A stretch of DNA of 64,000 bases from Natranaerobius thermophilus JW/NM-WN-LF (GTDB lineage: Bacteria; Bacillota; Natranaerobiia; Natranaerobiales; Natranaerobiaceae), in the NCBI RefSeq assembly GCF_000020005.1, contig NC_010718.1:1431001-1495000 (forward strand), given 5' to 3'. A program made the translations under genes and the position numbers. Positions 16,653 through 20,946 of this stretch are shown here, piece by piece. Position 1 is the first letter of the stretch, and each line of letters opens with the position of its first letter. The notes under the pieces were generated by a model. It worked only from the letters and a program-made list of their open reading frames with translations, had not been told where the DNA came from and ran no database searches.

Positions 16653-16687
16653 AAAAGACACCCATTATTGGGTGTCTTCATTTTTTT
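16651..16687. terminator. Bidirectional terminator between comM and the minus-strand gene
   Basis: GACACCCA at 16657-16664 pairs with TGGGTGTC at 16669-16676 around TTAT, with an A-run before (16651-16656) and a T-run after (to 16687), so it works in both directions. The stop codon of the minus-strand gene lies in the loop. Confidence 0.9.
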
Positions 16688-17789
16688 CCTGGGTTAAACT
16701 TTGAAATTGGAATAATAAATTACAAATTTGGTCTAAGTCATAAACTAGTGTAGCAATTTCGATTAGAGACCTAATATGAGCAGGTCCTAAGTGGCTTTCT
16801 TGCCAGTTATTAATTTTTTCACGCAGTTCTTCTCTTAAAGTGGTGATTTCTTCTATCTGATTTGAAATTATTTCTACTCTATTATCATCGGATTCTAAGA
16901 AATTTTCCAGTAAATTTTTTTCTAGACTTGTGGTTAAAAACAAGAATTCTTGTACTGAATTAAGTAAATCATTGTATTGTGTACTGGGGTTTCTGATACC
17001 AGATAAACGATTACATCTTTGTTCAGCAACATATTGAATATCAATTACCCGTTGGGCTATAAGCCATAGCAGTTCTAATGCCTTTTCCATTTTATCGATC
17101 TCATTAAAGCTTTTGTGCTTGCTCCCAAAGTAACGCTTGTAACCTCGTTCATTTTTATACATGGCTAATTTTTGCTTTGCTTCATCATGGAGGTGATAAA
17201 TTCTGTCAACCAACTGATCGATATGTTCCTGACTGTAGTTTTCACAAGTCAGAAAACTGTTGATAACTCTCATCATCAATAATTCAATTCCTTCATTTAA
17301 GTCGCGCAAGCTCTTTTTTACAGTTTCAATATGCTGTGGTGGAGAAAATAAAAGATTAATTATTACTGCTACGATAATTCCTAAGAAGGGTAAAATGGTA
17401 GCTCGATGGACAGCATAAGAAACTGTGTCGTCTCGTCCTCCGGTCATTATAATTGCCACTGTTACGCAAGCCAAGTTGATAGATTCGGTCCAGCCAAACT
17501 TAAGACAGACCAAAATAGTAATGATAATAGCAAGTCCTACAAGTAAAGGGTTATTTCCCAAAGTGAATAACATTAATAAAGCTATTATTGCTCCGATAGC
17601 AGTAGCCTGAATTCTTTCCCAGCCCTTGATAAAAGAATCAGTAATTGTGGGCTGTAGTGAAATAATAGCTGCTATAGCTGCTAGATAAGCATATTCTAAT
17701 TGTAATAAACTGGCCAACCATATTGTGATTGTAACGGCCAATCCTGTTTTCCAAACTCTTGGTCCTATTATCACTGGTCTTCTCCCCAT
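16665..17789 (-). CDS. FUSC/aromatic acid exporter (ArAE)-type membrane protein
   Basis: The protein of about 374 residues has several predicted N-terminal membrane helices within residues 15-150, including LAAIAAIISLQPT, a conserved-looking stretch of this family, then a soluble helical C-terminal domain of about 220 residues. This layout matches the YqjA/DUF939 branch of the FUSC or aromatic-acid-exporter superfamily; the substrate is unknown. ATG 17789 gives MGRRPVIIGPRVWK; TTG 17795 or GTG 17807 are possible starts. It is the only minus-strand gene in the window and is divergent from the asparagine-synthetase-like gene. Confidence 0.82.
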   Translation of the reverse strand: MGRRPVIIGPRVWKTGLAVTITIWLASLLQLEYAYLAAIAAIISLQPTITDSFIKGWERIQATAIGAIIALLMLFTLGNNPLLVGLAIIITILVCLKFGWTESINLACVTVAIIMTGGRDDTVSYAVHRATILPFLGIIVAVIINLLFSPPQHIETVKKSLRDLNEGIELLMMRVINSFLTCENYSQEHIDQLVDRIYHLHDEAKQKLAMYKNERGYKRYFGSKHKSFNEIDKMEKALELLWLIAQRVIDIQYVAEQRCNRLSGIRNPSTQYNDLLNSVQEFLFLTTSLEKNLLENFLESDDNRVEIISNQIEEITTLREELREKINNWQESHLGPAHIRSLIEIATLVYDLDQICNLLFQFQSLTQEKNEDTQ

Positions 17790-17825
17790 TAACAAATATA
17801 ATAACACTCCCGATATTTCTTAAAT

Positions 17826-17854
17826 ATACTAACATGGAAAGGGATAAAACTCAA
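17826..17854 (-). promoter_or_regulatory. Candidate sigma-A promoter of the FUSC-type gene
   Basis: Read on the minus strand, TTGAGT (17854-17849), a 17-base spacer and TAGTAT (17831-17826) match housekeeping boxes in four positions each. An inverted repeat abuts its -35, which would suit repressor control. Confidence 0.35.
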
Positions 17855-17878: not shown

Positions 17879-17909
17879 CAAATAATATTATGACTGGAGG
17901 GCAGTCTTT

Positions 17910-19772
17910 ATGAGTGGTTTGGCTGGTGTTATGTCGCCTAACAGAGAATTTGAAAGACAGAAAATTGTTGATAACATGCTGGCAACACTTAATCACAGGG
18001 GACCAGGGATCAGAAAGAAACATTCTATTAATAAAATTACTATGGGAATGACCGTGAACGTTGAGAAAGAACAGCAGGTTTTGCCTTATGTAAATGAATA
18101 TAACAACAAAATGATGATTTGTGATGCCACTATCTTCAATTCACATGAACTGGGACAACAATTAAAAGCTAAGGGACATTATTTAAGGACCGGTAATGGA
18201 GAAGAAATTTTGCTTCATCTCTATGAAGAATGGGGTTTGGATGGATTACAAAAGGTCAACGGATTTTTTAGTCTGGTGATTTATGACAAAAATACAGATA
18301 AGTTAATTGCCGCACGTGATCCCTTTGGCGTTAAACCTCTTTATTATCATCAAAAAAATGGTACCATACTCTTTTCTTCTGAATTAAAGGGAATAGTAGC
18401 TTCTAATTTAATTTCTCCTAAATTAAACTCCTATTGCCTCAATTTGTATCTAATATTACAGTACCCTCCGGAGCCTTACAGTATGATTGATGATGTCTAC
18501 CGTGTCCTTCCAGGAACTGCAATGACTTTTAATAAAGCTAGCATAGAATCTACTTACAAATATCATACTTTTGTATTTAATGGTTCGAATAAATTCACTC
18601 AATCAAAACCAAAGGGAGGTAATAAGCAAGAAATAGCAGAACAAACCAAAACTTTATTTCAGAAAAGTATTCAGGAACAATTTGAAAACACATCTAATCC
18701 AGGAGCATTTCTTTCAAGTGGAATAGATTCTTCCTCAGTAGTTGCTCTGTTAAATAAAAAATATGTTCCGGGGATTTCTACATTTTCCGTGGGGTTTCAT
18801 TTTCAAAAGTATGATGAACTTGAATTTATTAAAAATTTAACAGCTCAACTTCAGGTTAACAATTATCAAAAATTGGTGTCTTTAGAGGAATTGAAGAACG
18901 AATTGCGTAAATTTGTGTGGCATCTTGACGAACCAGTAGCTGATCCTTCTGCCTTTGGTTTATATAAAGGGGCTGAACTTGCAAGTAATTTTGTCAAAGA
19001 AATTTTTTCAGGAGAAGGAGCAGATGAATTTTTTGGTGGATACAATATCTACCAAGAACCCTTATTTGTCAACAAAATTCAAAAATTACCATCGACTGTA
19101 TTATCTACTATGAATAGTATATTTAATATTATTCCTTACAATATAAAAGGAAAGAGTTTATTTAAAAGAGCCAACACTCCTCTATCCGAGAGATATTTCG
19201 GTAATGCCATGATTTTCACTCCAGCTGAAAAGGATAACTTAATTTCCAAAGAACATCAAATTTCTGGAGTCTTAGACAAAATGTTTAAACCTATCTATAA
19301 AAATGTAGAAAAATGCCACGATGTTAATAAAATGCAGTATGTAGACATAAATTCCTGGATGACAGGTGATATAATGCTAAAAGTTGATAGAATGTTAATG
19401 GCACATTCACTGAGCTTAAGAGCCCCTTTTCTTAATCTTGAATTGACAGACTGGGCTTATAATTTACCTGTTAAGTGGAAAGTTTCCCAAAAAGAGACCA
19501 AAATAGCTTTTAGAAGAGCCATGAATGACATTTTACCTCAACAAAGTGTTGTTAAGAAAAAACTAGGGTTTCCAGTACCTACTGATAAATGGTTTGAAAA
19601 TTCTTTGATTACATGGGCTAAAGATTTGTTATTGTCTAATGAAAGTAAAAAATACTTTAATCCAAACAAAGTTAAAAAACTAATGAAACCCGATAAAAAA
19701 ACTGATTTTCAGGGCAGAAAATTGTGGACACTATTGATATTTTTACTATGGCAAGATATGTATCTAAAATAA
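17910..19772 (+). CDS. Asparagine-synthetase-like protein with degenerate glutaminase domain
   Basis: The 620-residue protein has the two-domain AsnB build: an N-terminal Ntn amidohydrolase fold (1-210) and a C-terminal ATP-pyrophosphatase fold (240-620) with SSGIDSS near 271, HLDEPVADPSA, GEGADEFFGGY and LKVDRMLMAHSL. The glutaminase half looks dead: the essential Cys2 is Ser (MSGLAGV), NGE of the glutamine pocket is CDA, and the conserved Arg and Asp regions are changed. No upstream in-frame Cys start exists; GGAGGG at 17897-17902 fixes this ATG. It may use free ammonia, or a different nucleophile as beta-lactam synthetases do. asnB is therefore not assigned as name. Confidence 0.85.
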   Translation: MSGLAGVMSPNREFERQKIVDNMLATLNHRGPGIRKKHSINKITMGMTVNVEKEQQVLPYVNEYNNKMMICDATIFNSHELGQQLKAKGHYLRTGNGEEILLHLYEEWGLDGLQKVNGFFSLVIYDKNTDKLIAARDPFGVKPLYYHQKNGTILFSSELKGIVASNLISPKLNSYCLNLYLILQYPPEPYSMIDDVYRVLPGTAMTFNKASIESTYKYHTFVFNGSNKFTQSKPKGGNKQEIAEQTKTLFQKSIQEQFENTSNPGAFLSSGIDSSSVVALLNKKYVPGISTFSVGFHFQKYDELEFIKNLTAQLQVNNYQKLVSLEELKNELRKFVWHLDEPVADPSAFGLYKGAELASNFVKEIFSGEGADEFFGGYNIYQEPLFVNKIQKLPSTVLSTMNSIFNIIPYNIKGKSLFKRANTPLSERYFGNAMIFTPAEKDNLISKEHQISGVLDKMFKPIYKNVEKCHDVNKMQYVDINSWMTGDIMLKVDRMLMAHSLSLRAPFLNLELTDWAYNLPVKWKVSQKETKIAFRRAMNDILPQQSVVKKKLGFPVPTDKWFENSLITWAKDLLLSNESKKYFNPNKVKKLMKPDKKTDFQGRKLWTLLIFLLWQDMYLK

Positions 19773-19783
19773 ACTGGCAAGAA

Positions 19784-19813
19784 TTGACTCTAATATATTA
19801 AATAGTGTATACT
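19784..19813 (+). promoter_or_regulatory. Sigma-A promoter for dprA-topA-trmFO
   Basis: TTGACT at 19784-19789, an 18-base spacer ending in TG, and TATACT at 19808-19813 make a good housekeeping promoter with five of six matches in each box, 84 bases before the first likely dprA codon. Confidence 0.7.
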
Positions 19814-19896: not shown

Positions 19897-20946
19897 ATGG
19901 GGTTAAAGTTGATTCCTGGTTTAGGCAATAACAGAATAAAAAAGTTGATTCAATGGTTTGGTTGTGGGGAAGAAGTTTGGAATTCATCTATTGAAAATCT
20001 TTTAGAAGTATCTGGTATTAGTTACGATTTGGCTGAAAATATAGTGGTTCATAGATCTAAAATCGATTTACAAAAAAAGGTTAATGAAATTATGGAACAG
20101 GGAATAAAGATTATATTACCTGAGGAATATCCTGAATCACTACAAGAAATTTATGATTCTCCTGTTTTGTTATATGCCAAGGGCGATGTATCATTACTTA
20201 ATACCAGAAAACTTGCTGTAGTTGGAACACGTAAAATAACCAGTTATGGAGATATAGTCATTAAAAATATCATACCTTCAGTGACAAGGGCTGATATAAC
20301 AATTGTCAGCGGTTTAGCTAAGGGAACAGATGCAAAAGCTCACTATAGATGTTTACAGGAAGGGGGGAAAACCATTGCCGTTTTAGGCAATGGTTTAGAT
20401 ATTATTTATCCTCCAGAAAACAGGGAACTATACAAGCAAATCTCTGAAAAGGGGCTATTAATCAGTGAATATCCGCCAGAACTTGGCCCACAAAAATTTC
20501 ATTTCCCTCAACGCAACCGGATAATAAGTGGTTTGTCAGAGGGTGTTTTGGTCATTGAAGCTCCTAAAAAAAGTGGGGCTATGATTACAGCTCAATTAGC
20601 TTTAGATCAAAATAGAGAAGTTTTTGCTATACCAGGTAATATTAATAATCCATGTAGTCAGGGTTGCAATGCTTTAATTGCTCAAGGTGCTAAAGTGGTT
20701 ACGGATCCTGATGATATTTTGACAGAATATAATTTAACAGTTAATATGCTTATAGAAGAATCTAAGAACAGACTTTCCTCATCTCAAAAAGCAATTTTGG
20801 AAAAAATCCCTTATTATGAAATATCAATTGATGAATTATTGTCTTCAACTAATACTGATAAGGATATTTATACATGTTTATTGGAATTAGAATTAAATGG
20901 ATGGATAATGCGCAGACTGGGTGGATATGTAATAAGGATAAAATAA
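19897..20946 (+). CDS. dprA: DNA-processing protein DprA, irregular 5' end
   Basis: DprA (Smf) loads RecA on incoming single-stranded DNA during transformation. The 349-residue frame has an N-terminal helix-hairpin-helix-like GLKLIPGLGNNRIKK, the Rossmann DprA core with VVGTRKITSYG near 108, SGLAKGTDAKAH near 140, LGNGLDIIYPPEN and FPQRNRIISGLS near 205, and a C-terminal winged-helix part. ATG 19897 has no ribosome site. AGGAG lies at 19865-19869, and another frame from ATG 19884 reads MKVCY, like the usual residues before GLKLIPG, so a one-base shift or indel near 19896 is suspected. Confidence 0.9.
   Translation: MGLKLIPGLGNNRIKKLIQWFGCGEEVWNSSIENLLEVSGISYDLAENIVVHRSKIDLQKKVNEIMEQGIKIILPEEYPESLQEIYDSPVLLYAKGDVSLLNTRKLAVVGTRKITSYGDIVIKNIIPSVTRADITIVSGLAKGTDAKAHYRCLQEGGKTIAVLGNGLDIIYPPENRELYKQISEKGLLISEYPPELGPQKFHFPQRNRIISGLSEGVLVIEAPKKSGAMITAQLALDQNREVFAIPGNINNPCSQGCNALIAQGAKVVTDPDDILTEYNLTVNMLIEESKNRLSSSQKAILEKIPYYEISIDELLSSTNTDKDIYTCLLELELNGWIMRRLGGYVIRIK

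Follow-up and report, generated by a model that had tools for sequence, protein, structure and literature searches.

A glutaminase-dead, probably ammonia-fed variant of the AsnO-type asparagine synthetases in Natranaerobius thermophilus

In enzymes of the AsnB type the PP-loop domain forms an acyl-adenylate, and these enzymes are able to take ammonia directly. Ammonia-dependent activity is seen in wild-type human asparagine synthetase, ASNS (PMC6748925), and in L. casei AsnH the replacement of the N-terminal Cys by Ser abolishes the glutaminase (PMC3885529). A Cys-to-Ser mutant of PurF continues to use ammonia (PMC3261824), and NAD synthetases include natural ammonia-only forms (PMC3376133). 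AsnO of B. subtilis supports asparagine synthesis in E. coli, where it complements an auxotroph (Yoshida 1999, as cited in PMC8554201). The literature that we searched yielded no description of a Cys-less AsnB that uses ammonia. The gene analysed here lies in the genome of the haloalkalithermophile Natranaerobius thermophilus (G000, the source genome), within a window of 64,000 nucleotides (G000:C2:1431001-1495000), which is the whole stretch of DNA that was analysed; G001 denotes a related genome of the same family. Table 1 gives the features of this asnO-like gene, whose product is called the window protein below.

The open reading frame begins with ATG AGT GGT (Met-Ser-Gly), bearing out the Ser that the earlier note had read in place of the catalytic Cys, and Ser2 is also found in the orthologue in G001 (L013). 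An in-frame TAA at 17883-17885 closes the frame on the 5′ side, and the eight codons between this stop and the ATG hold neither ATG, GTG or TTG nor a Cys codon, which excludes Met-Cys as the true start. L013 is 51% identical to the window protein and syntenic, lying between the divergent FUSC gene and dprA-topA-trmFO; it starts Met-Ser, reads YRGEN and GDVS, and carries E414K and R416C. Because this syntenic protein likewise combines Met-Ser with a wrecked pocket, the glutaminase-dead state is conserved, and sequencing error is ruled out as the source of Ser2 and of the pocket loss.

Table 1. Features of the asnO-like gene and its surroundings (positions in the window; residues in human ASNS numbering where a replaced or equivalent residue is named)
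Feature	Position	Strand	Evidence
FUSC-family membrane-protein gene, divergent from asnO-like gene	16668..17807	-	Synteny with G001
Candidate promoter ATAACA-N18-TATACT	17801..17830	+	Consensus match only
Ribosome-binding site GGAGGG	17896..17901	+	Sequence; eight bases 5′ of ATG
asnO-like gene; product of 620 aa, homologous to asparagine synthetases, glutaminase-dead	17910..19772	+	ORF intact; Pfam; NCBIfam; AlphaFold
Codon 2, Ser replacing catalytic Cys1	17913..17915	+	Sequence, residue table
Segment in place of FGFRRLSIIDLEGGKQPL; no Arg48 equivalent	18042..18086	+	Alignment, residue table
D72-A73-T74 replacing Asn74-Gly75-Glu76 (NGE)	18123..18131	+	Alignment, residue table
G97 replacing glutamine-pocket Asp96	18198..18200	+	Residue table
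F119 replacing invariant Met; probable ammonia-tunnel position	18264..18266	+	Column comparison
PP-loop SSGIDSS, ATP-pyrophosphatase motif, intact	18714..18734	+	Residue table
SGEGADE intact (human Glu364/Asp367 equivalents)	19008..19028	+	Residue table
KVDR intact (Lys491-Arg494)	19380..19391	+	Residue table
SLRAPFLN replacing ELRVPFLD on glutaminase-facing surface of synthetase half	19413..19436	+	Residue table
Lys551, invariant catalytic lysine of synthetase site	19560..19562	+	Residue table
Promoter-like site of dprA, TTGACT-N18-TATACT	19784..19813	+	Consensus match
dprA, 3′ neighbour of asnO-like gene	19897..20946	+	Synteny with G001

The gene sits in a comM-dprA-topA context, outside any natural-product cluster. 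Its candidate promoter belongs to a class of consensus matches found 15 times against 9.9 expected from shuffled sequence, and a similar match, TTAACA-N18-TATACT, stands at equal spacing 5′ of L013. At 17795-17830 the divergent promoter-like sites of the FUSC gene and the asnO-like gene overlap, in sequence conserved between G000 and G001. Since dprA has a promoter-like site of its own, the asnO-like gene looks like a separate transcription unit. The same neighbourhood recurs in G018, a genome of a distant family, where an intact AsnO-type gene with the Cys comes immediately after yraN-comM (L099).

In order to compare catalytic residues we compiled a residue table of 86 proteins (the window protein and 85 relatives; 71 Cys-containing, 15 Cys-less) in human ASNS numbering, with the glutamine-pocket residues read from human ASNS (PMC6748925). 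Cys-containing relatives keep Arg48 (71/71), Asn74 (69/71), Glu76 (68/71) and Asp96 (70/71). None of the residues that mark a glutamine-dependent asparagine synthetase, namely the N-terminal Cys, Arg48, Asn74-Gly75-Glu76 and Asp96, was found in the window protein. The replacement of the conserved Arg-containing segment, as claimed in the earlier note, is confirmed by alignment and takes Arg48 with it, and its reading of NGE as CDA turned out to be one residue out of register, as ICDATIFN aligns with VFNGEIYN. Its HRGPG in place of HRGPD is correct to the letter but is not diagnostic of glutaminase loss, as other Cys-less relatives keep HRGPD. The Met of the LRGM motif, present in 46 of 46 Cys-bearing AsnO-type proteins, is Phe in the window protein and Tyr in L013; this position is presumably that of the ammonia-tunnel residue Met120 of E. 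coli AsnB, and the change may narrow the tunnel. That the glutaminase half is catalytically dead, as first proposed from the letters, is strongly supported by these residue losses together with the homologous mutant in which Cys-to-Ser exchange leaves no glutaminase (PMC3885529).

In the synthetase half, SSGIDSS, GEGADEFFGGY and LKVDRM are all present as the earlier note had reported, and the residues expected of a PF00733 synthetase (PP-loop S-G-D-S, Glu364, Asp367 and the catalytic Lys) were all found. Pfam assigns GATase_7/GATase_6 (PF13537) and Asn_synthase (PF00733) domains only, with no AsnA fold (PF03590) in the window protein. NCBIfam model TIGR01536 (asn_synth_AEB) matches at 342 bits (cut-off 267) and carries the name asparagine synthase (glutamine-hydrolyzing), the second part of which is wrong for this protein as the glutaminase residues are absent. 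Changes in the synthetase half include Glu414 to S502, Val417 to A505 and Asp421 to N509. Glu414 of human ASNS has been called ‘absolutely conserved’ and lies within 5 Å of the glutamine pocket (PMC6748925); it is kept in 71/71 Cys-containing relatives and is Ser in the window protein and Lys in L013. Of the columns with 95% or higher invariance across 46 Cys-bearing AsnO-type proteins, those changed in both the window protein and L013 number 12/38 in the glutaminase half and 8/66 in the synthetase half, and none of these eight is a listed catalytic residue. AlphaFold gives a confident full-length model (mean pLDDT 92.5, pTM 0.93); among solved structures its fold is matched best by TsnB9, human ASNS and AsnB of E. 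coli, with beta-lactam and carbapenam synthetases behind. Between the window protein and L013 the glutaminase half is 47% identical and the synthetase half 53%, a ratio of 0.89, where Cys-bearing pairs at similar distance have a mean of 1.00 and a 5th percentile of 0.89. By model and identity ratio, the glutaminase half is still folded and only mildly relaxed.

Judged from its sequence, the window protein is probably an ammonia-dependent, AsnO-type asparagine synthetase on a dead glutaminase scaffold, and as such a variant within a known enzyme family. In this mechanism the class II glutaminase domain would be retained as a structural scaffold with no catalysis of its own, the C-terminal PP-loop domain would use ATP to adenylate a carboxylate (most likely that of the aspartate side chain), and the acyl-adenylate would be attacked by free ammonia from solution, not by glutamine-derived ammonia from the tunnel. 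We thus infer ammonia as the donor and aspartate as the acceptor. The cytoplasm of N. thermophilus is at about pH 8.5 at its optimum, about one unit below the outside pH of 9.5 (PMC2764116), which implies a larger NH3 share of ammonia. The proposal of the earlier note that free ammonia is used, with the alkaline habitat as the rationale, stands as the best reading and fits this alkaline cytoplasm, but the rationale is weakened by similar Cys losses in other families, whose habitats are unknown, and by the state of the other amidotransferases. GuaA, CarA, PyrG, HisH, a gamma-glutamyl-GABA-hydrolase-like protein, GlmS and PurF of G000 all keep their catalytic Cys by sequence inspection, so a general loss of glutamine use is rejected, the Cys loss is specific to AsnB relatives, and an abundance of ammonia is insufficient as the only cause.

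Two neighbouring genes of the source genome also encode intact, Cys-type relatives, an AsnO (L001) and a protein of the AsnB/LtsA type (L002), so that another intact asnB, which the earlier note had suggested looking for, is indeed present; alongside these two, the need for one more asparagine synthetase is not evident. In G001 there are only three AsnB-family proteins (L013, L045 and L046), all Met-Ser, and no Cys-type AsnB was found. No AsnA was found in G000, G001 or G002. In these three genomes no AsnRS exceeded the cut-off and GatB is present in all, so that the tRNA-dependent route probably supplies Asn-tRNA; protein synthesis would then proceed without need of free asparagine, which counts against an ammonia-fed asparagine synthetase. 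L005 (G000:C2:468059) and L006 (G000:C2:1954532) are Met-Ser paralogues of about 480-500 aa and form, with L045 and L046, a short group that has no Arg48, Asp for Asn74, and Asp or Asn at Glu414. In the pair L006/L046 the glutaminase half is clearly relaxed (identity ratio 0.63). A Cys-bearing, 457-aa member of this group (L125:4030-5410; G000:C2:2055029-2056409) is a pseudogene: an in-frame TAG stands where SGEGADE has its Ser, and the 3′ end is disrupted, whereas the Met-Ser members L005 and L006 have remained intact. L010 (G000:C2:2728377-2729330, minus strand) is a 608-aa AsnB-like protein that starts MSKLIG, has lost Glu364, Asp367 and Lys466, and adjoins MurJ/O-antigen-type membrane proteins.

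All 15 Cys-less proteins in the residue table have also lost the glutamine pocket, and 14 of them keep the synthetase residues. In a search of 398 genomes from the phylum, other AsnO-type proteins without the Cys turned up in families f11 (G011, G129, G388), f68 (G282) and f86 (G159); a scan of the genome contigs gave no match with the window protein alone and two loci only with a two-sequence query. On a tree built from the synthetase domain alone, the window protein falls within an AsnO-type group of 36 rows (support 100/99) on its own long branch. The stem that it shares with L013 measures 1.48 changes per column, and a sister relationship of this pair to L001/L014, the AsnO pair of the order itself, is not rejected (p 0.37), nor is it established. 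The Cys-less label requires four changes on this tree, at least three of them on well-supported branches; a single origin is rejected (AU p = 2e-5), leaving at least three separate losses. In f11 the Cys was lost from a single-copy gene; in the sister family f19, single copies carry the Cys. In G011, G129, G388, G282, G159, G010 and G038 a Cys-less protein is the sole AsnB-type protein and AsnA is absent; AsnA is present in G021. Being the sole AsnB-type gene is rejected as a special trait of Cys-less genomes, as 11/16 Cys-bearing control genomes likewise have a single full AsnB-type gene (12/16 with G234, where the second match is a 46-bit fragment). This shared single-copy state suggests that the Cys-less proteins replaced the usual enzyme one for one and are not extra paralogues with new jobs, which favours the same reaction with another nitrogen source. 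Asn74, the oxyanion-hole residue, has become Asp in 12/15 Cys-less proteins (the window protein, L013, the f11 clade, L083, the 490-aa paralogues, L034 and L035) against 2/71 Cys-bearing ones. This recurrent change raises the rather doubtful idea that the dead pocket serves as an ammonium-collecting vestibule, in which Asp beside Ser would bind NH4+ and pass NH3 to the synthetase site. L084 (DULI01000004.1) and L022 (G016) keep the N-terminal Cys, have Asp for Asn74 and have lost Glu76, and are possible intermediate states of glutaminase loss.

The strongest competitor, which we regard as unlikely but well short of negligible, is a shift of substrate: acyl-adenylates would still be made, with an acceptor or amine other than aspartate or ammonia, as in intramolecular ring closure, amine or hydroxylamine ligation, or cell-envelope amidation. 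Such a shift would fit the long stem of the window protein and L013, the altered state of otherwise invariant synthetase positions (E502S, V505A, D509N, V364E, L366F), the fact that G000 also encodes an intact AsnO and an intact AsnB, and the amidation of peptidoglycan by related LtsA/AsnB enzymes (PMC8554201), but it sits poorly with the retention of the core motifs and of the AsnO signature ADPSA, with the lack of a biosynthetic cluster around the gene, with G001 keeping L013 while having no Cys-type AsnB, and with the single-copy status of the Cys-less protein in other lineages. The best solved relative, the hydroxyamidotransferase TsnB9, points towards a shift by its activity and away from it by being Met-Cys itself. 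That the protein is a pseudoenzyme, regulatory or decaying and without catalysis, is very improbable: the genome does hold a true pseudogene of the AsnB family, the paralogue L125, but here the frame is open over 620 codons, L013 in G001 is syntenic and 51% identical, the checked synthetase residues are all kept, identity is 47% even in the GATase half, and a promoter-like site is conserved between G000 and G001. Least credible is an arrangement like that of two-subunit amidotransferases, with a dedicated glutaminase in trans supplying the synthetase half with ammonia, for although such splits are known elsewhere, as in the T. thermophilus NAD synthetase (PMC3376133), no glutaminase gene adjoins in G000 or G001, the dead class II domain still fills the docking site in the AlphaFold model, and tunnel-region and interface residues are altered as well.

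Glutaminase loss in AsnB relatives is a repeated pattern, of which we found no description in the literature searched. If ammonia feeding is the right reading, AsnB-type enzymes have repeatedly switched from glutamine to ammonia in related bacteria, and the ammonia-fed form is the sole AsnB-type enzyme in several genomes. The natural, folded, glutaminase-dead enzymes would be material for studying the path of ammonia to the synthetase site, and the automatic annotation as glutamine-hydrolyzing would be wrong for a recognisable set of proteins.

Among known systems, the window protein most resembles the AsnO type (B. subtilis AsnO group) in its domain order, PP-loop, SGEGADE, Lys and DEPxADPxA, at 34-39% identity, and differs from it in lacking the glutaminase residues. 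The AsnB/LtsA enzymes that amidate mDAP, to which L002 belongs, are of the same superfamily, but the window protein has no PGMADIDSS-type acceptor segment with extra loop and groups with the AsnO type. TsnB9 (PDB 7ylz) is the best solved match in both sequence and fold (TM 0.76/0.82), yet it is only 18% identical, keeps Met-Cys and acts on glutamate-carried hydroxylamine, and no TsnB9-like pathway was found next to the asnO-like gene. Beta-lactam synthetase (1jgt) and CarA (1q15) are AsnB relatives without glutaminase function and share the fold, but their TM values of 0.56-0.62 and their profile scores fall below those of AsnB and TsnB9; the analogy to them drawn in the earlier note is unsupported, as the window protein is nearer to AsnB, AsnO and TsnB9 in sequence and fold and has a comM-dprA-topA context. 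AsnA is a functional analogue, using aspartate, ammonia and ATP, with an unrelated fold. PurF′ of Crenarchaeota and the ammonia-only NAD synthetases are amidotransferase relatives of other enzyme families that likewise lack a glutaminase, and the use of ammonia has been proposed for the former and shown for the latter.
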